64,000 nt of DNA from Allobosea sp. 117 (GTDB lineage: Bacteria; Pseudomonadota; Alphaproteobacteria; Rhizobiales; Xanthobacteraceae). Of the stretch, positions 2,469 through 22,214 are shown piece after piece. A program made the position numbers and the translations under genes. Below the pieces are notes generated by a model. The model was not told the DNA's origin and searched no databases. It saw nothing but the letters and a program-made list of their open reading frames with translations. Location of the stretch: the NCBI RefSeq assembly GCF_000702305.1, contig NZ_JNLC01000013.1:310001-374000 (forward strand), written 5' to 3'. Position 1 is the stretch's first letter; every line of letters begins with the position of its first letter.

Positions 2469-3422
2469 ATGCGCAGCTACCTCGATTTTGAAAAGCCCGT
2501 TGCCGAGCTCGAGGCGAAGCTCGAGGAATTGCGCGCGCTCTCGGCGGAAGGCGGCGCGGTCGCGATCAGCGACGATATCGGCCGGCTGGAGGCCAAGGCC
2601 GGCGAGGCGCTGGTCCAGCTCTACGCGAACCTGACGCCCTGGCAGAAGACGCAGGTGGCCCGCCACCCGATGCGCCCGCACTTCTCCGACTATACGGCGC
2701 GCGTGTTCGAGGACTTCACGCCGCTCGCCGGCGACCGCAAGTTCGGCGAGGACGCGGCGATCCTCGGCGGCTTCGCGCGCTTCCGCGGGCAGGCGGTGTG
2801 CCTCATCGGGCAGGAGAAGGGGTCGTCCACCGAGACCCGCATCAAGCACAATTTCGGCATGGCGCGGCCGGAGGGTTACCGCAAGGCGGCGCGGCTGATG
2901 GAGCTCGCCGACCGCTTTTCGCTACCGGTCATCTCGCTGGTCGACACCGCCGGCGCCTATCCCGGCATCGGCGCGGAGGAGCGCGGCCAGGCCGAGGCGA
3001 TCGCCCGCTCGACCGATGCGTGCCTCTCGCTCGGCGTGCCGAACGTCGCCCTCATCATCGGCGAGGGCGGCTCGGGCGGGGCGATCGCGCTCGCCACCGC
3101 AAACCGGGTGCTGATGCTGGAGCACTCGATCTACAGCGTCATCTCGCCGGAAGGCGCGGCCTCGATCCTGTGGCGCGACACTGCCAAGGCGCAGGAGGCG
3201 GCGACCAATATGCGCATCACTGCGCAGGACCTCGCGAGACTCGGCATCATCGACACCATCGTGCCGGAGCCGACTGGGGGCGCGCATCGCGATCCCGACG
3301 CGACGATGGACGCGGCGGGCAACGCGATCGAGGCGGCGCTGGAGAGCCTGCAGGGGCTCGATGCTTCCGCCCTGCGCAAGGCGCGGCGCGAGAAGTTCCT
3401 GGCGATCGGTCGCAATCTCTGA
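2469..3422 (+). CDS. accA: Acetyl-CoA carboxylase carboxyltransferase subunit alpha
   Basis: AccA pairs with AccD to transfer the carboxyl group from carboxybiotin to acetyl-CoA, giving malonyl-CoA for fatty acid synthesis in the cytosol. The 317-residue protein starts [15 protein letters not shown], which fits the usual start and length of the family; the frame is open further upstream but without family similarity. Diagnostic stretches include [18 protein letters not shown], the [16 protein letters not shown] segment and the oxyanion-type loop [10 protein letters not shown], followed by [13 protein letters not shown]. It stands alone, with accD not in the window. There is little doubt about identity. 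Confidence 0.97.
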
Positions 3423-3591
3423 AGGTGCCATGATGCCGTGACTGACGACCGGTATCGGGGGCCGGGCTTGCGGGAACGGCCTGTCGAGGATAACGCTTAC
3501 CCATGTTGCTGTTCGTCGGGGCGTTCAGGGGAGTCGCGCGTTGATCGCTGGGGTTCCTTCGCAGCCGTCGCGGGGGCGTCGGCCTGTCACC

Positions 3592-5256
3592 ATGCGCAGC
3601 GGCCTTGCCGCGCGCTGGCGCGGGGCGCTGCTGGCCGGCGTCGCGGCGCTGGCGCTCGCCGCCTGCAACGGTGGCAGCGGACCGGGACCGGGCGCCAAGG
3701 CGATGAAGCCGCTCTCGCCCGAGATGGTCTCGCTCATCGAGAGCAAGGGCATGACGAAGGACAGCCCCATCGTCGTGCGCATCTTCAAGGAAGAGTCGGA
3801 GCTGGAGGTCTGGAAGGAGACGCGCAACGGCGAGTATGCGCTGCTCAAGACCTATCCGATCTGCCGCTGGTCGGGCGAGCTCGGTCCGAAGGTGAAGGAA
3901 GGCGACCGGCAGGCGCCGGAAGGCTTCTACACCATCACGCCGGGCCAGATGAACCCGAATTCGAACTACTACCTCGCCTTCAACATGGGCTTCCCCAACG
4001 CCTATGACAAAGCGTGGGGCCGCACCGGCGCCAATCTGATGGTGCATGGCGACTGCTCGTCCTCGGGCTGCTACGCCATGACCGACGAGCAGGTGCAGGA
4101 GATCTTCGCGCTCGGGCGCGACAGCTTCCTCGGCGGGCAGCGCTCCTTCCAGGTGCAGGCCTATCCGTTCCACATGACCGCCTCGAACATGGCGCGTCAC
4201 CGGAACAATCCGAGCATGCCGTTCTGGCGGATGATCAAGGAAGGCCACGACGCCTTCGAGATCGCCAAGGCGCCGCCCAAGGTCGACGTGTGCGAGAAGC
4301 GCTACGTCTTCAACGCGACGCCGACCGACCCGACGCAGAAGTTCAATCCGAGCGGCCCCTGCCCCGAATTCACGCAGCCGGAGGACATCCAACAGCAGGT
4401 CGCGGCGCGCAAGGCGGCCGACACGGCGCGCATCGCCGCGCTGTCGCCGATGACGCCGGTCGCGCCGGTGCGCACCGGCAAGGACGGCGGGATGAACCAG
4501 GTGTTCCTCGCCAAGCTGCAGAACCCGAAGCTGAAGGCGCCGGGCTCGCTGCCGCCGGTGGTGAAGCCGCCGGGGCTCGACTATGGCGTCGCGACCAACG
4601 AGCCGGCGCCGGCCGAACTGCTCGCGCCCGACAGTGCGACGCCGAGCGCCACCGAGAGCGTCGCGCTCGCCTCGGCGAACGTGCCGATGCCGATGCCCCG
4701 CCCGGCCGGCGCGCCGCGCGCCCAGCCCGAGACGGTGCTGTTCGCGAACAACAGCGCGCCCGCCGCGCCGGCAACCCGCGTCGCCTCGATCGACAGCGGC
4801 GGCTTCCTGAGCGGCGTGACGAAGTTCTTCGGCGGTGGCGACGAACCGGCGGCCGCTCCCGCGCCGTCGGCGACCGCGCCGTCTTCCGCTCCTGTGGCGT
4901 CGTCCGCCGCGCCGGCGCCGTCCGCCTCGCCCTCGCTGTCGTCGCGTCTCGGCCTTTCCTCGCTCGGCAAGTGGTTCGGGCAAGGCGAGCCCGAGCCGGC
5001 CGCGCCGGTGGCTATGGCCACGCCCGCCGCCGTTCCGGTGCCGCCGACCCGCCCGGCGGCGCCCAAGCCGCAGGCGACCGCGCCCGCCGCCACGCCGCGC
5101 GCGGCGGCGGCCCAGCCGGCTTCCCAGCCCGCCGCATCCCAATCCGTCGCGCCGGCGCCGCAGGCGGCGGCCGCCCAGGCCTCGGACGCCCAGTGGATCG
5201 AAACGCCGAGCCTGCCGGGCGCGACAATCGTCACTCCAGGGACGTTCGGCCAGTAG
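3592..5256 (+). CDS. YafK-type L,D-transpeptidase lipoprotein with long Pro/Ala-rich tail
   Basis: This is a putative cell-wall cross-linking or anchoring enzyme. The start at ATG 3592 gives a lipoprotein signal peptide with lipobox LAAC and the lipidated Cys near residue 25. The YkuD/YafK catalytic segment is at about residues 150-165 (VHGDCSSSGCYAMTD), with His152 and the likely nucleophile Cys160. The domain ends near residue 270. The remaining 280 or so residues are Pro/Ala/Ser-rich and low in predicted order, with two short conserved-looking patches (FLSGVTKFFGGG and LSSLGKWFGQG). The tail is much longer than in E. coli YafK (about 246 residues in total). It lies alone downstream of accA and is convergent with the EamA gene. 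Confidence 0.85.
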   Translation: MRSGLAARWRGALLAGVAALALAACNGGSGPGPGAKAMKPLSPEMVSLIESKGMTKDSPIVVRIFKEESELEVWKETRNGEYALLKTYPICRWSGELGPKVKEGDRQAPEGFYTITPGQMNPNSNYYLAFNMGFPNAYDKAWGRTGANLMVHGDCSSSGCYAMTDEQVQEIFALGRDSFLGGQRSFQVQAYPFHMTASNMARHRNNPSMPFWRMIKEGHDAFEIAKAPPKVDVCEKRYVFNATPTDPTQKFNPSGPCPEFTQPEDIQQQVAARKAADTARIAALSPMTPVAPVRTGKDGGMNQVFLAKLQNPKLKAPGSLPPVVKPPGLDYGVATNEPAPAELLAPDSATPSATESVALASANVPMPMPRPAGAPRAQPETVLFANNSAPAAPATRVASIDSGGFLSGVTKFFGGGDEPAAAPAPSATAPSSAPVASSAAPAPSASPSLSSRLGLSSLGKWFGQGEPEPAAPVAMATPAAVPVPPTRPAAPKPQATAPAATPRAAAAQPASQPAASQSVAPAPQAAAAQASDAQWIETPSLPGATIVTPGTFGQ

Positions 5257-5268
5257 GCGCGTGCGGTT

Positions 5269-6135
5269 TCACGCGAGCAACAGCACGCCAGCAATGAGCA
5301 CGGCGCAGCCGGCGAGCCGCCACGGTCCGACCGGCTCCTTCAGGATGAGCAGTCCGAGCAGCGCGCCGACCATCATCGACATTTCGCGCATGGGGGCGAC
5401 GGCGCTGACCGGGGCGCCGATGTCGAGCGCTGCCAGCACCAGTATGTAGGACAACGGCGAGAGCAGGCCGACGCCGAGGGCGAGATGCCAACGGCCCCGC
5501 ATGGCCGCGCGGAAGCCCACAGGGTTCGCGAACATCACCGGCGTCAGAAGGGTGGCGCGCACGAGGTTCGAGAACCAGTCGAGCAGTACCGGCGCGATGG
5601 CGAGTGCTTTCACCCCATAGGCGTCGATGACGGTATAGGTGGCGATCAGCCCGCCCGTCGCGAGGCCCCAGCACACGCCGAGATGGCCTTCCCTTTTTCG
5701 AAAGGCGGCGAAGCTGCCCTGCGTCGCGATGAGCCCGATGCCGGCGACGACCGCGAGCAGCCCGAGCACACCGGGCAGGGTGACGGGTTCTCCGAAGAGA
5801 AGAAAGGCCGTAGTGGCGGAGAGAAGCGGCCCGCTGCCCCGGGCGACCGGGTAGACTACGGAAAGGTCTGCGACCTGATAGCCGCGCTGCAGGCAGAGGC
5901 TGTAGGCGAGATGGACGAGGCCGCTGGCAAGGATGCAGGCACCGACCGGCCAGCTCCAGTCCACCGCGCGCTCGGCAAGCAGCCAGCCGACCCAGGGCGC
6001 GTAGGCGAGGCAGGCGATGAGGTTATAGGCGACGACGAAGGGCGGGCCGGCATCGGCGGCGCGCTTCGACATGAGATTCCAGCTTGCATGGATGAGCGCC
6101 GCCGCCACGACGAGCGCCAAGGCGAGAAAGGTCAC
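5269..6135 (-). CDS. EamA/DMT-superfamily transporter under a ykkC-type riboswitch
   Basis: An integral inner-membrane permease of 288 residues with about ten hydrophobic segments in two EamA repeats. The first repeat opens with LIHASWNLMSKRAA and contains the family motif SVVYPVARGSGPLL and FGEPVTLPGVLG. It is roughly twice the size of the small SMR exporters usually linked to guanidine. The start is GTG at 6135, supported by a perfect AAGGAGG four bases upstream (6140-6146). The leader carries a ykkC/guanidine-I type aptamer (separate entry), so the likely role is export of guanidine or a related compound. That is inference from the RNA; the protein alone says only metabolite exporter. It is convergent with the L,D-transpeptidase gene. 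Confidence 0.88.
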   Translation of the reverse strand: MTFLALALVVAAALIHASWNLMSKRAADAGPPFVVAYNLIACLAYAPWVGWLLAERAVDWSWPVGACILASGLVHLAYSLCLQRGYQVADLSVVYPVARGSGPLLSATTAFLLFGEPVTLPGVLGLLAVVAGIGLIATQGSFAAFRKREGHLGVCWGLATGGLIATYTVIDAYGVKALAIAPVLLDWFSNLVRATLLTPVMFANPVGFRAAMRGRWHLALGVGLLSPLSYILVLAALDIGAPVSAVAPMREMSMMVGALLGLLILKEPVGPWRLAGCAVLIAGVLLLA

Positions 6136-6169
6136 GAGACCTCCTTATGCCCGGAAGGGCATCTGGTGT

Positions 6170-6285
6170 CTCGACGTCTCCGCCTCTGGGGTTTTATCCC
6201 TCGGGTGCAGCCATGGCGACGCGCCATGGTTTTCGCAACGCTCGGTCCAGCGGCGCCTTCGCGCCCGGAACCCTAGTTGCCACTC
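6170..6285 (-). promoter_or_regulatory. ykkC/guanidine-I type riboswitch
   Basis: Read on the minus strand, the leader of the EamA gene contains the conserved blocks of the ykkC aptamer in order. CTAGGGTTCCG is at 6276-6266, followed by a GGCGC-GAAG-GCGCC hairpin (6265-6252). Next comes CTGGACCGAG (about 6251-6242) and an 8-bp hairpin CCATGGCG/CGCCATGG (6229-6211). It ends with GAGGGATAAAACCCC and a GGCGGAGA block close to 6177. Between aptamer and start codon are a small ATGCCC/GGGCAT hairpin (6162-6147) and a CGAGAC that can pair with GTCTCG just past the ribosome site, so translation control is plausible. The guanidine subtype is favoured because a transporter follows; other ykkC subtypes bind ppGpp or PRPP. 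Confidence 0.85.
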
Positions 6286-6360
6286 GGTCGATCGCCCTCA
6301 TCTACACCCCGGAGACCGGCCGCCGCAACTGCGATACGACGGCACAGCCGCCCGGCCACC

Positions 6361-9159
<2,799 letters not shown>

Positions 9160-9518
9160 CGCGTCTTCCAATCCGTGTCCCGCCAGGGCAGAGATCAGGC
9201 CAGGCGGTGACGGGCCGCCGGGCCCTTTGGCGATGCTGCGCCCGCCTCATCCGATCGAGACGCCCTTTGCGGCCGAAATGGGTCGGTCGGCGGGTTTCGA
9301 CGGGCTGCGGCACGTACCGCCGGGTCACATAAAGGCGAGCGCCGGGGAGGCGCCGCGCGGCGTGCCACACTTATGAACGGGTTTGGGGGTTGTCAATCAC
9401 AGTGCAGCTTCCGGTCGACACAAGGGGGCCGCAGCCCCGCCGCTTGCAACCCGTGCCGAACTCGGCCAGCTTTCGCCGCCGAACAGCGGACAACCGCAAA
9501 CACCCAAGGAATGGTTCC
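9160..9518. other. Divergent intergenic region between secA and ppiC-like gene
   Basis: No coding region with family similarity was seen here. The stretch must hold promoters for secA (leftwards) and the foldase gene (rightwards). A locally AT-richer segment occurs around 9365-9400. A strong ribosome site AAGGA lies at 9506-9510, eight bases before the ATG at 9519. I could not pick a convincing pair of -35/-10 boxes by eye. Confidence 0.5.
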
Positions 9519-10511
9519 ATGATGTCTCATCGTCCGCGTCCCGTGCGCGCCCATCGCGCCGGCCGGCTTCTCGCCGGCGCCGCCGCGCTTCTCATCGGTG
9601 CCGCCGGCGTCGTTCCGGTCGCCCATGTCGCTTTCGCACAGACCGCGCCGGCCGCCGCCACGGCTTCGACGGATGATCCGGTGCTCGCCACGGTGAACGG
9701 CGTCGAGCTGCGCCGCAGCGACCTCAAGATCGTCGAGGATGAGCTTGGCGCCAACCTGCCTCCGCAGCTCGTCGGCCCGGCGCGCGAGGAATACATGCTC
9801 GGCTTCCTGATCGACCTGACCGCGCTCGCCCAGGCCGGCGAGGCGCAGAAGCTCGACCAGACCCCGGAATTCGCCCAGCAGATCGCCTTCGCCAAGAAGC
9901 GCCTTCTGATGCAGGCCGCGCTGACGCAGGCGACTAAGGCCGCGGTTTCCGACGAGGCTCTGAAGAAGACCTATGAGGAAGCGGTGAAGCAGCAGAAGCC
10001 GGAAGAGGAGGTGCATGCGCGCCACATCCTGTTCCGCGCAGACCCGAAGGACGAGAAGGCCTCCGCCGAGGCCGAGGCGAAAGCCAAGGACGTCGCGGCC
10101 AAGGTCAAGAAGGGCGAGGATTTCGCCACCCTCGCCAAGCAGCTCACCGAGGACCCCTCCGGCAAGGAGAACGGCGGCGATCTCGGCTTCTTCGCCGAGG
10201 ACCAGATGGTGCCGGAATTCGCCACCGTCGCCTTCAAGCTGAAGCCGGGCGAGGTGTCCGATCCGGTGAAGACGCAGTTCGGCTGGCACGTGATCAAGGT
10301 CGAGGAGAAGCGCGAGAAGCCGGTGCCGACCTTCGAGCAGGTCAAGCCGCAGATCGAGCAGTTCCTCGCCCAGAAGGCGCAGGCCGATGTGGTGCAGAAG
10401 ACCCGCGACGCGGCCAAGGTGGTGAAGACCGACGCGGCGCCGAAGCCGAGCGACCTTGTTCCCGGCGGTCAGCAGCCCGCCGCGCCGGCCGACGCCCCGA
10501 AGACGCCGTGA
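9519..10511 (+). CDS. Periplasmic PpiC-type peptidyl-prolyl isomerase/foldase
   Basis: A parvulin-type foldase that helps exported proteins fold in the periplasm. The 330-residue product starts [15 protein letters not shown] with a signal peptide ending near AQTAPAA (residue 42). An N-terminal SurA/PrsA-like helical chaperone region follows. The parvulin domain spans about residues 165-265, with [27 protein letters not shown] and [12 protein letters not shown] as signature strings. A Pro/Ala-rich tail ends the protein. The ATG at 9519 is fixed by AAGGA eight bases upstream. Its divergence from secA fits an export-related role. A rho-independent terminator follows at 10550. Confidence 0.93.
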
Positions 10512-10549
10512 GGCGATAGCTAGGGCGATCCATATTGCCGTAGTGATGA

Positions 10550-10583
10550 CGATGGCCGGGTCTTCCCGGCCGTCGCTGTTTTT
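10550..10583 (+). terminator. Rho-independent terminator after the ppiC-like gene
   Basis: An 11-bp stem (CGATGGCCGGG with CCCGGCCGTCG, one G-U pair) closes a four-base loop TCTT and is followed by TGTTTTT. It separates the foldase gene from argJ. Confidence 0.85.
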
Positions 10584-10659
10584 GCCGTCTTGCGTGCGTC
10601 ATCCGCATCGGGCACACCGCTTCGCGCCCGTCTCGTCCGCCGCATCCTCCGAGAGCCAC

Positions 10660-11913
10660 ATGTCCGCTGCCAAAGCCCCTGCCGTCTCGCCGCTCGCGCC
10701 CAAGACCACGCCGGAGGTCGGTCCGGTCGAGGGGGTGCGCTTCGCCACCGCCGAGGCCGGCATCCGCTACAAGGGGCGCACCGACGTGCTGCTGCTGGCG
10801 CTCGACGCGGGCACGAGCGTCGCCGGCGTGTTCACGCGCTCCAAATGCCCTTCGGCGCCGGTCGAGTGGTGCCGCGAGCAGCTCTCCGGCGGCGTGGCGC
10901 GCGGGCTGGTGGTCAATTCTGGCAATGCCAACGCCTTCACCGGGGCGAAGGGTCGCGAAGCGACCAAGCTGACCGCCGAACTCGCCGCCAAGGCGCTCGG
11001 CTGCAAGGAAAGCGAAATCTTCCTCGCCTCCACCGGGGTGATCGGCGAACCGCTCGACGCCAACAAATATCGCGGCGTGCTGGACGAGACGGCGAAGCGC
11101 CTCGCGCCGCTGCCGTGGATCGACCCGGCCCGCGCGATCATGACCACCGACACCTTCCCCAAGCTCGCCACCGCGACCGCCACGATCGATGGTGTGAGCG
11201 TCACCATCGCCGGCATCGCCAAGGGCGCCGGCATGATCGCCCCCGACATGGCGACCATGCTCTCCTTCGTCTTCACCGATGCGGCGATCGAGGCGCCGGC
11301 GCTGCAGGCGCTGCTGTCGAAGGGCGTCACCGACAGCTTCAACGCGGTGACCATCGACGGCGACACCTCGACCTCCGACACGCTGATGCTGTTCGCCACC
11401 GGCGCGGCGGCGAAGCGCGGCGCCCCGCGCATCGCCGATGCCGCCGACCGCCGCCTTGCCGGTTTCCGCAAGGCGCTGCAGCGCGTGCTGGCCGACCTCG
11501 CCGAGCAGGTGGCGCGGGACGGGGAGGGTGCCCGCAAGCTGGTGCGCATCGCCGTCACCGGCGCAGTCTCCAAGCGCTCGGCGCGTCGCGTCGCCATGTC
11601 GATCGCCAATTCGCCGCTGGTGAAGACGGCGGTCGCCGGCGAGGACGCCAATTGGGGGCGTGTCGTCATGGCGGTCGGCAAGGCCGGCGAGCCGGCCGAC
11701 CGCGATTTGATCACCATCTCCTTCGGCGGCATCCGGGTGGCGACCGAGGGCGCGCGCGATCCCGGCTATGACGAGGCCGAGGTGTCGGCCTACATGAAGG
11801 GGCAGGTGATCGACATCGGCGTCGACCTCGGGCTCGGTCGCGGGAGCGACCGGGTGATGACCTGCGACCTGACCAAGGAATATGTCGCCATCAACGGCGA
11901 CTACCGCTCGTGA
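10660..11913 (+). CDS. argJ: Bifunctional ornithine acetyltransferase/N-acetylglutamate synthase
   Basis: ArgJ moves the acetyl group from N-acetylornithine to glutamate, closing the arginine acetyl cycle. The 417-residue proenzyme starts [12 protein letters not shown]. It has the self-cleavage site in [16 protein letters not shown], where Thr199 becomes the N-terminal nucleophile of the beta chain. [18 protein letters not shown] and the C-terminal [10 protein letters not shown] are also diagnostic. The C-terminus is typical of the family. The start was placed after the terminator at 10550-10583; earlier in-frame starts lie inside the terminator region. mutT follows 82 bases downstream in the same direction. 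Confidence 0.97.
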
Positions 11914-11995
11914 AAAAGCGCTGGAAACAGCGGTTTTTCGGCGATCGCGTCAGCGCCGCGTTAAGAGGTTCCCCGCTACGGTCAGGGAGTTGTTC

Positions 11996-12400
11996 GTGAA
12001 GCTCGTGCTTGTCGCCGCCTGTGCGCTGGTCGATGCCGATGGCCGTGTCCTCATCTCGGAGCGGCCGGCCGGCAAGGCACTCGCCGGACTCTGGGAATTC
12101 CCGGGCGGCAAGGTCGAGCCTGGCGAACGGCCGGAGGAGACGCTGATCCGCGAGCTGGCCGAGGAGCTGGGTATCCAGGTCAAGGAAGCCTGCCTCGCTC
12201 CGCTCACCTTCGCCAGCCACACCTATCCGGACTTCCAGCTATTGATGCCGCTGTGGATCTGCCGGAGATGGGAAGGGCTGGCGCAGGGTCGCGAGGGCCA
12301 GCGTCTGGCGTGGGTGCGTCCGCAGAAGCTGCGCGACTATCCGATGCCGCCGGCCGACGAGCCGCTCATTCCGATGCTCGTCGACATCATCGGTTCATAG
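11996..12400 (+). CDS. mutT: 8-oxo-dGTP diphosphatase MutT (Nudix)
   Basis: MutT hydrolyses oxidised dGTP to keep 8-oxoguanine out of DNA. The 134-residue product has the full Nudix box, GGKVEPGERPEETLIRELAE followed by ELGI, at about residues 39-62. The FASHTYPDFQLLMPLW region beyond it is typical of MutT rather than other Nudix enzymes. The start is GTG at 11996, selected by AGGGAG at 11984-11989 six bases away; the frame stays open upstream into the end of argJ but without similarity. The argJ-mutT order is common in Rhizobiales. Confidence 0.93.
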   Translation: MKLVLVAACALVDADGRVLISERPAGKALAGLWEFPGGKVEPGERPEETLIRELAEELGIQVKEACLAPLTFASHTYPDFQLLMPLWICRRWEGLAQGREGQRLAWVRPQKLRDYPMPPADEPLIPMLVDIIGS

Positions 12401-12433
12401 GCGCCGGGGCGTCCCGGCGCAGCGGGGCGCGTG

Positions 12434-12649
12434 ATGACCGGGTACAGGCGGATACGAAGGCACGACGCCGCGGCGGTGCTGGGCGGCTTCTGGCGCGATC
12501 AGGGCGCGGCGACCGCCATCGAATATGCGCTGGTCGCGAGCAGCATCGGCGCCGCCATCGCCGCCACCGTCTACACACTGGGCGACGAGGTTCTCACCAC
12601 CTATTACACGCGGATCAGCGAGGCGGTGGCCTCGGCCAGCCCGAACTGA
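12434..12649 (+). CDS. Flp-family type IVb pilin, orphan
   Basis: A 71-residue prepilin-like protein. A short basic leader (about residues 1-24) is followed by the Flp core GAATAIEYALVASSIGAAIA, the hydrophobic helix that packs into Flp/Tad fibres. The hallmark Glu-Tyr pair is present. There is one extra Ala between the expected Gly cleavage residue and the core, so cleavage may fall after GA rather than G. No tad/cpa assembly genes are nearby, so it must use machinery encoded elsewhere or be a minor pilin. It begins at ATG 12434, 34 bases after mutT, and may be co-transcribed with it. Confidence 0.8.
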   Translation: MTGYRRIRRHDAAAVLGGFWRDQGAATAIEYALVASSIGAAIAATVYTLGDEVLTTYYTRISEAVASASPN

Positions 12650-12655
12650 CGGAAT

Positions 12656-13570
12656 CTACTCGTCGCGCTCCGCCCGGTCGCTTAGCGGCAAAGGCAGCTC
12701 CTTGGTGCCGAGGGCATCGGCGAGGCGCTTTCGCGCGGATCCCGGCCGCAACGGCGTCTGCTGGCTCTCATGCGGCGCCCAGCCGGATATGAAGACGACC
12801 TCGAAGGTGGCGCGCAGCCGCCCGTCCGGGTCCGCGAAGCGTTCCCCATAGACCTCGACGAGGCGCGCCAGCGTCCCCCGCCGCAGCGGCTCGCGCCGGC
12901 GGGCGGCGAGCGGGTTGGTCGCGCCCATGCGGCGCAGATCGGCGAACAGCGCGAAGATGTCGCCATAGCGCACGGTGACGCGGTCGACGTCGGTGACCGG
13001 CAGAGCGAGGCCGGCGCGCTGCAGCAGCCCGCCGAGGTCGCGCAGGTCCGCGAAGGGCGCGACGCGGGGCGAGATGCCGCCGAGCGTGTCGCTCTCGGCG
13101 ATGGCGAAGGCCTCCCTCAGCTCGCCCAGCGTGCCGCTGCCGAACAGGGCGGCGAGCAGCAGCCCGTCCGGGCGGAGCGTGCGGCGAAGCTGCGCGAGCA
13201 GGCCGGGCAGGTCGTTCACCGTCTGGAAGGCGAGCGCCGACACGACGAGGTCGAGCGAGGCCGGCGCGATGGGCAGCGCTTCCGGATCGGTGACGACGTC
13301 GACATCGGCGCGCTCGGCGGGACCGAAGACGTCCAGCCGGCCGACCATCGGGCTGCCGGCGAGCGCGCGGCGCAGCGCGTCGGCGGGCGTGCCGAGGTCG
13401 GCGGCGCGGGCGAATTCCCGCTTCACCGCCGTCAGCCGGTCGGCGAGGTCTTCCGCCACGCGATCGAGCAGGAAGGTCTCCGGGCCGAGCCGCAGCGCGC
13501 GGCGGCGGGCGGCGGCGAGGGCGCGGGCATCGAAGATCTCGAACGGGCCGGAACCGTCTGGCGCGGACAA
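12656..13570 (-). CDS. SAM-dependent methyltransferase-like protein (BioC/NDUFAF5 type)
   Basis: A 304-residue class I methyltransferase fold. It opens with FDARALAAARRRAL, as in alphaproteobacterial relatives of the mitochondrial complex I assembly factor NDUFAF5. A degenerate SAM-binding stretch precedes DVVTDPEALPIAPASLDLVVSA, where the acidic loop and post-I motif are visible. LRPDGLLLAALFG is the strand-5 region. Homologues are NDUFAF5-like or malonyl-ACP methyltransferase-like; which reaction occurs here cannot be settled from sequence. The C-terminal tail is Arg-rich. It is divergent from comF across about 100 bases, a common arrangement in the order. Confidence 0.82.
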   Translation of the reverse strand: MSAPDGSGPFEIFDARALAAARRRALRLGPETFLLDRVAEDLADRLTAVKREFARAADLGTPADALRRALAGSPMVGRLDVFGPAERADVDVVTDPEALPIAPASLDLVVSALAFQTVNDLPGLLAQLRRTLRPDGLLLAALFGSGTLGELREAFAIAESDTLGGISPRVAPFADLRDLGGLLQRAGLALPVTDVDRVTVRYGDIFALFADLRRMGATNPLAARRREPLRRGTLARLVEVYGERFADPDGRLRATFEVVFISGWAPHESQQTPLRPGSARKRLADALGTKELPLPLSDRAERDE

Positions 13571-13670
13571 GCGGCAGTCTCCCTGGACGACGCGGGCGCG
13601 TGGCGCTCGCGCGAGCCATAGGCCGCATCGGGGCGCGGGTCAAAGCGGGTCGGCCGTGATAGGATCGCTC

Positions 13671-14492
13671 ATGCTCGACGATGTCGTCACGCCGTCCTCT
13701 TCGCCGTCCCTCGCCGCGCGCGTCGGACGAGGCGTGCCGGCTGCGCTGCGCGGTCTCGGCCGGGCGGCGGTCGATCTGGTGCTGCCGCCGGTCTGCGCCG
13801 GCTGCCGGACGGCGGTGGCGGAGCCCGGCTGCCTGTGCGGGGCGTGTTGGAGCGGCCTCGACTTCATCGAGCGACCCTATTGCGAGCGGCTCGGCATCCC
13901 CTTTGCGTTCGATCCCGGCGGGGCGAGGCTCTCGGCCGAGGCGCTTGCCGATCCGCCCGCCTATGACCGGGCGCGGGCGGCGGTTCTCTATGGCGGCATC
14001 GGCCGCGATCTGGTGCACGGACTGAAATACAACGACCGCACCGAGACCGCCCGGCTGCTCGCCCGCATGATGTCGCGCGCCGGCGCCGAGCTGCTCGCCG
14101 GCGCGGACGCGCTGGTGCCGGTGCCGCTGCATCGGCTGCGGCTGTGGCGGCGGCGCTTCAACCAGTCGGCGGCGCTGGCGCTCGGCATCGCCCGCGAGAG
14201 CAGCGTCGCCTTCCGGCCCGAATGGCTGGAGCGCCGGCGCCCTACGGCTCCACAGTTCGGCCTCGACCGGTCGGCGCGCGCGAATAACGTCGCCGGCGCC
14301 TTCGCCGTGCCGGAGGCGATGCGCGCCGAGCTGGCCGGACGCCGCATCGTCCTCGTCGACGACGTGCTCACCACCGGCGCCACCATGGACGCCTGCTGCA
14401 AGGCGCTGCTGCGCGCCGGCGCCGCTGGCGTCGACGTCCTGGTGTTCGCACGGGTTGTTGATGGGCGGTCGGCGCCCATATCATTGAGCTAG
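13671..14492 (+). CDS. ComF family phosphoribosyltransferase-like protein
   Basis: A 273-residue ComF/GntX family member. A four-Cys-type zinc ribbon lies near residues 42-59 (CAGC then CLCGAC), and a type I PRTase domain follows with the PRPP loop IVLVDDVLTTGATMD at about 226-240. The RRRFNQSAALA stretch is typical of the family. Family members are linked to DNA uptake in some bacteria, but the biochemical role is unresolved. The ATG at 13671 has AGGA six bases upstream; a GTG at 13656 is an alternative. It leads a same-strand run with grxC, nit and the DUF1178 gene. Confidence 0.92.
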   Translation: MLDDVVTPSSSPSLAARVGRGVPAALRGLGRAAVDLVLPPVCAGCRTAVAEPGCLCGACWSGLDFIERPYCERLGIPFAFDPGGARLSAEALADPPAYDRARAAVLYGGIGRDLVHGLKYNDRTETARLLARMMSRAGAELLAGADALVPVPLHRLRLWRRRFNQSAALALGIARESSVAFRPEWLERRRPTAPQFGLDRSARANNVAGAFAVPEAMRAELAGRRIVLVDDVLTTGATMDACCKALLRAGAAGVDVLVFARVVDGRSAPISLS

Positions 14493-14514
14493 CGCCATCC
14501 GGAGGCAGACGAAT

Positions 14515-14817
14515 ATGCCCCAAGTGAACCCGTCCCAAGCGAATGTGTCTGACGTGAGCTCGTCCGACGTCGTGATCTACACGACCCGCTACTGCCCCTA
14601 TTGCCACGCGGCGAAGGACCTGCTGGACCGCAAGGACGTCAGCTTCCGGGAGGTCGACGTGACCGGCGATGCGGAGGGGCGGGCCGCCATGGCGCGGCGC
14701 GCCAACGGGCGCACCAGCGTCCCGCAGGTGTTCATCCGCGGCAACCATGTCGGTGGCTGCGACGATCTCTACGCGCTCGACGAGGCCGGCGAGCTCGACC
14801 CGTTGCTCGCCGGCTGA
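14515..14817 (+). CDS. grxC: Glutaredoxin 3
   Basis: A small cytosolic dithiol oxidoreductase that uses glutathione to reduce disulfides. The 100-residue product has the active site CPYC at residues 27-30 in TTRYCPYCHAAKDLL, the cis-Pro loop TSVPQVFI, and the glutathione-contacting GGCDDLYALDEAGEL. An N-terminal extension of about 17 residues precedes the first strand; a start further in is possible. It lies 22 bases after comF and 34 bases before the nitrilase-family gene, a conserved grxC-nit pairing in alphaproteobacteria. Confidence 0.96.
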   Translation: MPQVNPSQANVSDVSSSDVVIYTTRYCPYCHAAKDLLDRKDVSFREVDVTGDAEGRAAMARRANGRTSVPQVFIRGNHVGGCDDLYALDEAGELDPLLAG

Positions 14818-21895: not shown

Positions 21896-22214
21896 GCTAT
21901 CCTCCGGTCGCAAGGAGCGCCCCGGCTGGTTCACCGCCCGGGTCCGGCGCACGGTAAGACGGGACCGTAACGCCGCTGTGACCATGAACGGTCGGCGCTG
22001 GCATGTCCTTGAGGGAGGTCAGGAGCCGCGTTTCCGGCGGCTTTCCTTGACTTCGCCACATCGGCCCGATAGGAACCCGCGATCCTCGCACGTTCCGCGA
22101 GCCGTCCCGCCGCCCGGTCCCGGAGACCGGAGGTCCACGCCCGACAGCGCGATGCGCCCTCGGGCGCTTTCGGCTTTGCGCGAATGATCGTGGCAACGGA
22201 ACCAGGCGAACGGC
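21896..22214. other. Divergent intergenic region between pyruvate-kinase-like gene and ffh
   Basis: No gene with family similarity was seen. A GCGCCC-TC-GGGCGC hairpin followed by TTTCGGCTTT lies near 22150-22180 in the ffh leader and could be an attenuator or a terminator of a short upstream transcript. Promoters for both flanking genes must be here, but I cannot place them. Confidence 0.4.

Follow-up and report, generated by a model that had tools for sequence, protein, structure and literature searches.

A candidate orphan ykkC-type riboswitch with an end helix and an altered pocket upstream of an EamA exporter gene in Allobosea sp. 117

The locus and its exporter gene

A ykkC-type RNA was located on the minus strand of the window (the whole stretch of 64,000 nucleotides that was analysed), between secA (6361-9171) and the gene of an EamA exporter. 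The features of the leader and the gene are given in Table 1. The motifs that the earlier note had named in the ykkC order were found on this strand, and the features of the ykkC superfamily, namely CUAGGGUUCCG, GGWCCRAG and the P1-P2-P3 architecture, were present in the correct order. A pattern composed of the two core motifs had a single match in the window and no match in 100 dinucleotide shuffles. At a relaxed threshold, cmscan matched the RNA to RF00442 (Guanidine-I) at 6182-6287 minus over the full model (1-107), with 46.1 bits and an E-value of 2.2e-7 for the stretch; the whole-genome search gave an E-value of 8.1e-7. The aptamer was slightly longer than the Rfam model when the end helix P0 was included. 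A complete ykkC-type aptamer lies directly 5' of the EamA exporter gene. In the Rfam scan of the window, no guanine or purine aptamer was above the threshold, and the sole match above a gathering score was the ffh sRNA (22123-22174 plus, 59.2 bits).

The 46.1 bits were below the Rfam gathering score of RF00442, which is 63 bits. The earlier note had held that a score below the threshold for every ykkC class would speak against its proposal. The ykkC identity is not refuted by the low score, since the guanidine subtype is what the Rfam model describes and the low-scoring RNAs form a consistent subgroup.

Table 1. Features of the leader RNA and its gene in window coordinates; the last row has the positions of locus L122.
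Feature	Positions	Strand	Basis
Whole ykkC-type aptamer including P0	6168..6292	minus	match to model R2, 133.3 bits (score not independent, as the window sequence, L041, is among the six used to build R2)
P0 5' strand UCGAC	6287..6291	minus	flank pairing, alignment
P0 3' strand GUCGA	6171..6175	minus	flank pairing, alignment
P1 5' strand GCAAC (partner GUUGC, 6235-6239)	6276..6280	minus	Rfam match, fold, alignment
Core CUAGGGUUCCG ... CUGGACCGAG	6241..6276	minus	core pattern search
C at the position of A46 (guanidine-I) or C49 (PRPP aptamer), subtype 2 marker	6240	minus	sequence; rule in the accessible text of PMC6031431
P2 hairpin CCAUGGC...GCCAUGG	6211..6229	minus	Rfam match, alignment
Pocket strand CACC followed by C (guanidine-I: CACGG)	6203..6207	minus	Rfam match, sequence comparison
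P3 GGG AUAAAA CCC	6189..6200	minus	Rfam match, fold
A aligned with G89 (guanidine-I) or G96 (PRPP), going with G6202	6185	minus	own alignment
Anti-start strand CGAGAC, CGA common with P0	6168..6173	minus	pairing analysis
GUCUCG, complement of CGAGAC, spanning from the last Shine-Dalgarno base to the first start-codon base	6135..6140	minus	pairing analysis
Shine-Dalgarno sequence AAGGAGG	6140..6146	minus	sequence, fold
EamA-family DMT exporter, 288 aa, GTG start	5269..6135	minus	Pfam, NCBIfam, structure prediction
ykkC RNA of L122	1652-1690	minus	pattern match

The downstream gene matched PF00892 (EamA) with 58 bits against a cut-off of 28.2. The best NCBIfam model was TIGR03340 phn_DUF6 (phosphonate utilization associated), with 128.5 bits, which was under its cut-off of 288. 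The AlphaFold model of the protein had a mean pLDDT of 93.0 and 14 DSSP helices, which were interpreted as ten membrane segments broken by kinks. The best chains in Foldseek were the triose-phosphate/phosphate translocator 5y78 (query TM-score 0.67), LicB 7paf (0.79) and 5i20 (0.75), the last of which is presumably YddG; SLC35B1 and CST (CMP-sialic acid transporter) were among the further chains. The exporter thus shares the DMT superfamily fold with the EamA/DMT transporters (PF00892), but its identity to the 38 structure matches at E 0.001 or better was only 11-19%. Among the substrates of its fold relatives are phosphate esters and nucleotides, and the predicted DMT fold does not fix the substrate. 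The conserved charged residues of the exporter were considered as a clue to the charge of the substrate and were rejected, since both signs were present.

Distribution and gene association of the variant RNAs

A second RF00442 match, with 97.2 bits, was found in the same genome (G000). This RNA precedes an operon, presumably a guanidine operon, that encodes a substrate-binding protein of the ABC_peri_uca type (561.5 bits, cut-off 333.9), a permease and, farther downstream, an arginase-family protein (255.9 bits in Pfam). Across 150 genomes of the order, 40 RF00442 matches were obtained in 33 genomes, and they fell into 30 matches at 70.2-97.2 bits and 10 at 31.2-47.2 bits, with the window RNA among the low ten. 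The filters were stricter in searches over more than 40 genomes, in which weak matches can be lost. Because a canonical 97-bit RNA was present in the same genome and two score groups existed in the order, the low score of the window RNA denotes a subtype and not noise. Under the same strict filters, a canonical RNA was also detected in 3 of the 10 genomes of the order (150 genomes) that carried a variant.

Among 297 genomes of the order, the protein search detected relatives of the exporter at E 1e-40 or better in 23, its own genome included. The variant RNA stood directly upstream in 22 of these 23 protein-selected relatives, 21 with GAGCG and 1 with AAGCG. At locus L044 (genome G146), the 5' half of the aptamer was replaced by a sequence that contains apparent long inverted repeats and the 3' half was kept, which is perhaps an insertion into the riboswitch. 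The group-2 RNA model gave 19 matches in 15 of 398 genomes of the phylum. By eye, 4 of them were variants (L064-L067) and 15 had GAGAG or AAGAG; the variant is thus thinly spread outside the order.

A pattern scan (CTAGGGWTCCN{8,38}GGWCCGAGCGYY) of 84,980 species genomes yielded at least 119 stretches and at least 80 loci. The 80 listed loci are a sample, and the search pattern itself demands GAGCG. They came from several phyla, including Alphaproteobacteria, Burkholderiales, Brenneria, Vibrio, Actinomycetota, Anaerolineae and others. An EamA-type ORF was found within 1.9 kb downstream at 77 of the 80 listed loci, with an EamA profile built from 14 of the 80 loci and the window. The loci were divided by sequence into three groups according to a rule of the present analysis, with group 1 as the window type, and EamA was downstream in 26/26, 28/28 and 23/26 listed loci of groups 1, 2 and 3, respectively. 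The exceptions in group 3 were L105, L138 and L122. At L105 (3960-5246 plus, Catellatospora sp. KI3), the variant RNA type precedes an MFS transporter (PF07690, 45.9 bits). At L138 (2246-2460 plus, Nakamurella lactea), a variant ykkC RNA with GAGCG and CACCU lies about 200 nt upstream of the GMP synthase gene guaA. L122, which is the same place as L218 in a Chloroflexi MAG, holds a tandem RNA of the guanine-PRPP type, in which a purine aptamer (RF00167, 63.4 bits) is just upstream of a 2b-like ykkC RNA.

The next genes were read by eye at 62 loci, where genes had been chosen by codon-position GC. No recurrent neighbour besides EamA was seen beyond close relatives, and gene context was rejected as a clue to the ligand for this reason. 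In a clustering of neighbours by the longest ORFs, wrong strands had been picked in GC-rich DNA. Neighbours were common to near relatives, e.g., L084/L141, L087/L124 and L119/L153. Moreover, four Hyphomicrobiales loci with a group-2 RNA (L101, L142, L152 and L158) had mutually related genes, labelled by eye as MscS-type-like, downstream of EamA.

Structure, end helix and start-site pairing

The secondary structure was evaluated in two alignments, both of which were fitted to their model and hence favour it. On model R2, 98.8% of the cells were paired in 30 window-type RNAs (the window included), with two-sided change in 15 of 29 pairs, and none of 500 shuffles was as good on any of five measures. 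For 36 distinct group-2 RNAs, 97.2% of the pairs were standard and two-sided change occurred in 13 of 25 pairs; 0/500 shuffles were as good on four measures, and 80/500 on pair types.

The end helix P0 was nearly invariant in group 1, where the 30 rows of UCGAC/GUCGA held just one exchange, from G-C to A-U. In group 2, one pair of P0 was C-G in 24 rows and U-A in 12 rows, and two pairs of the helix changed on both sides, one in 12 and the other in 1 of the 36 rows. The own flanks paired better than swapped flanks in group 3 and in all 80 parsed RNAs (0/10,000 permutations in both), a set that had the window in, L085 out and L144 with a misplaced pocket strand. The same test was not significant in groups 1 and 2 alone (2412 and 3038 of 10,000), owing to the low variation of the strands. 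As a control, 38 canonical guanidine-I RNAs were examined, and they also paired their own flanks better than swapped ones (7/10,000). P0 was therefore rejected as a feature that discriminates between subtypes. In some alphaproteobacterial guanidine-I RNAs, e.g., L003 and L007, GUGCAG can pair with CUGCAC in a P0-like end helix, which was unexpected for guanidine-I.

The 3' strand of P0 can take part in a second pairing. The CGAGAC segment of the window (6173-6168) is complementary to GUCUCG at the start region (6140-6135), and pairing of the two excludes P0. Two mutually exclusive pairings near the ribosome site, as proposed in the earlier note, were thus recovered, and the alternative start-site pairings make translational control likely. 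The pairing energy of the leaders was compared by group, without L091, L109, L129, L144 and L160 (doubtful start codons) and without L085, L086, L105, L122 and L138. In group 1 (25 leaders), the mean value for the P0-strand region against its own start region was -18.3 kcal/mol, compared with -16.0 for permuted partners (0/10,000 as low) and -11.1 for shuffled sequences; the pocket strand contributed little (112/10,000, with an average no better than shuffled). In group 2 (26 leaders), it was the pocket strand, e.g., CACCUUAAAGACG, that paired with the Shine-Dalgarno region, e.g., CGUCUUUGAGGUG. The value was -14.9 for own partners versus -12.5 for permuted (0/10,000) and -6.4 for shuffled ones, and nothing was found for the P0 strand of group 2 against the start region (5882/10,000). 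The signals were weaker in group 3 (n=20), with 344/10,000 for the pocket strand and 81/10,000 for the 3' strand.

The guanidine, PRPP and ppGpp switches of the ykkC type are ON switches (PMC6031431, accessible text). The start-site designs are consistent with a single ON-switch logic, by which an anti-Shine-Dalgarno strand is taken away once the aptamer folds. In the ligand-free state, CGAGAC of the P0 3' strand would pair with GUCUCG at the ribosome site. With ligand present, the aptamer with P0 would form and free the start region of the EamA mRNA, and the exporter would be made. Ligand binding, translation upon binding and export of the ligand by the EamA protein are inferred steps of this scheme. 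In the thermodynamic fold of the window, the P0 state was 5.7 kcal/mol above the free minimum, and no release of the Shine-Dalgarno sequence by P0 was seen, with a mean unpaired value of 0.31 with P0 versus 0.58 in the free fold. The direction of switching is inferred, since enforcing P0 costs 5.7 kcal/mol and lowers the accessibility of the Shine-Dalgarno sequence.

Pocket, class assignment and ligand

According to the accessible text of PMC6031431, G48, C49, C77 and C78 of the PRPP aptamer hold the 5-phosphate and the metal M1, the pyrophosphate is held by A5, G6, A101 and G105, and the printed equivalences from guanidine-I to PRPP are A46/C49, A68/A74 and G89/G96. By these equivalences, the variant RNAs keep the counterparts of G48, C49, C77 and C78. 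No clear counterpart of A5, G6, A101 or G105 was seen by eye in groups 1 and 2. Of the 79 pattern RNAs parsed from the listed loci (L085 unparsed), 78 had C or U directly after CAYC or UACC in the pocket strand, and a recount after the misplacement of L144 and L160 gave the same number of pyrimidines. The sole A was that of L122. The genome of L122 holds two further RNAs, namely L219, near a sequence that is SerA-like by eye, with CACCA, and L203 with GAGAG and CACGG. Within groups 1 and 2, CGA after CACC went with A at the G96 position in 22/22 cases and CAA went with G in 12/13; the remaining starts were UUA/G (15), UGA/G (2), UGA/A (1) and CCA/A (1). L106, L138, L144 and L160 were unparsed in this count, and related sequences in it are not independent. 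The coupled purine exchange (CGA/A, CAA/G) may be read as a non-canonical pair. The rule was not followed in group 3, in which A was commonest at the G96 position whatever preceded it.

The comparison with the PRPP aptamer bears on whether a known subtype 2 switch (2a, 2b or 2c, for ppGpp, PRPP and nucleoside diphosphates) was recruited to the exporter gene. The window RNA has C49, CACC and the end helix P0 in common with the PRPP riboswitch (ykkC 2b), and the tandem guanine-PRPP-type RNA of L122 also matched the search pattern. However, recruitment of this kind is unlikely. The 2a/2b-like RNAs L218 and L219 have A after CACC, whereas the others have a pyrimidine, and the window RNA also differs from the PRPP riboswitch in A6185 at the G96 position by the present alignment. 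The UAGG 3' element of L218 is missing in the window-type RNAs. Furthermore, the EamA ORF that follows 77 of the 80 listed loci is not among the published genes of 2a-2c, and the window RNA precedes EamA instead of a purine gene. The target in the window is not one of the NUDIX or HAD hydrolases given for 2c (PMC7266159). The ppGpp switches (2a) act on genes of amino acid biosynthesis or transport; amino acid exporters do occur in the EamA families, but the genes given for 2a are branched-chain, glutamate synthase and natA genes (accessible text of PMC7266159 and PMC5912903).

A divergent but true guanidine-I riboswitch in control of an EamA-type guanidine exporter, which had been the first suggestion of the earlier note, is very improbable. 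The window RNA shares the core CUAGGGUUCCG/GGWCCGAG and the P1-P2-P3 architecture with guanidine-I (RF00442), and the accessible text of PMC5912903 (Sherlock et al., 2018) places the transporters of subtype 2d in the same superfamily as the guanidine transporters, describes 2d as most similar to guanidine-I and suggests a small, charged, toxic ligand. The marker residues differ. A46 is conserved in guanidine-I, whereas subtypes 2a and 2b have a pyrimidine there, and this single position suffices to sort guanidine from non-guanidine gene contexts (Knappenberger et al., PMC6031431, accessible text). C6240 is such a pyrimidine in the window RNA, although the marker rule is stated there for 2a and 2b. 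GGWCCGAGCG, i.e., C at the A46 position, was found in 10/10 low-scoring RNAs of the order, and C at this position was also found in 22/22 protein-selected leaders. By contrast, the 38 parsed canonical RNAs had A at position 46 and CACGG throughout, with GAGAG in 35 and AAGAG in 3. They comprise 26 of the 30 over-cut-off matches in the order and 12 from the phylum search; L076 and L080 repeat others, and L082, which also has GAGAG and CACGG, was left out. CACGG is replaced by CAYC/UACC and a pyrimidine in the 78 of 79 RNAs described above (CACCC in the window), the exporter belongs to another family than those of guanidine-I, and the canonical guanidine-I operon is separate in the same genome. 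In addition, an RF00442 match over the cut-off was absent in 14 of 15 group-3 genomes (that of L122 excepted), several of which are incomplete MAGs.

That the leader is a conserved structured element without a ligand, e.g., for protein binding or co-translational control, is hardly credible: no ligand is known for the group and no recurrent neighbour beyond EamA and close relatives points to a metabolite, but the scaffold forms a small-molecule pocket in the characterised relatives as published in the accessible text, and GAGCG with CACC was invariant in two sets that had not been selected for them (10/10 and 6/6).

The window RNA is therefore best described as a candidate of the EamA-type orphan ykkC class, published as subtype 2d, with a changed pocket, the end helix P0 and a proposed translational ON switch for the exporter, at a probability of roughly 0.8. 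Subtype 2d was reported with EamA (originally phn_DUF6) and TauE transporters and with the ligand undetermined (PMC7266159, Sherlock and Breaker, 2020, accessible text), and the combination of EamA/phn_DUF6 with a ykkC variant is thus not new. No later solution of the 2d ligand was found in the open-access papers searched. The ykkC scaffold, the non-guanidine marker and the downstream EamA (phn_DUF6) gene are common to the window RNA and 2d; the assignment rests on the gene type and the subtype marker, with 2d taken by its description. One point fits poorly, as end extensions are mentioned for 2a-2c only in the accessible text of PMC5912903 and PMC7266159, but the window RNA has P0. The ykkC architecture, the EamA target, the likely translational control and a variant for another ligand are supported from the initial interpretation, and the guanidine-I exporter switch is not supported.

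The ligand is probably not guanidine, because of the pocket changes and the separate guanidine switch in the same genome. It is probably anionic, maybe with a phosphate- or phosphonate-like group, as the variant retains the side of the PRPP pocket that binds the phosphate. A more specific proposal, which is put forward tentatively and judged somewhat less than even, is that the EamA-linked ykkC RNAs sense an anionic phosphate- or phosphonate-like metabolite and switch on the DMT exporter, with a second pocket half that differs from that of the PRPP aptamer. If true, one more ligand class would be added to those of the ykkC scaffold, and the guanidine-like ligand guessed in the literature would be turned into its opposite.

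The link to phosphonates is a weak hint. PhnJ co-occurred with the EamA relative in 16/23 genomes versus 146/274 others (Fisher p 0.19, kinship ignored). A PhnD-type gene was near the RNA in 2/25 group-3 genomes (L136, less than 1 kb; L139, about 5 kb), with about 0.11 expected within 6 kb (Poisson p 0.006, calculated after the fact). No PhnD, PhnE, PhnJ or PhnM match was obtained at the 54 pattern loci of groups 1 and 2 (up to 8 kb each), and L107, L108 and L125 matched only the ABC ATPases PhnK/PhnL, as any ABC transporter would. At L220 (genome G216, 2928-14553), the EamA gene and a variant RNA are convergent at the end of an operon of the phnD-E-E-G-H-I-J-K-L-M-N type, whose gene names were assigned by eye except for PhnJ.

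As a riboswitch candidate, the window RNA is well conserved and in keeping with an orphan class already published. Rfam 15 registers it solely as a sub-threshold guanidine-I match, so automated annotation misses the RNA or may mislabel it. P0 in this class, the comparison of the pocket, the anti-Shine-Dalgarno designs and the distribution go beyond the accessible literature on 2d, in which they were not found. The results allow a sharper test, as the construct can be made with P0, the pocket residues are suggestive of an anion and the start-site pairing can be read. Knowledge of the ligand would identify a metabolite whose export seems necessary to bacteria from several phyla.
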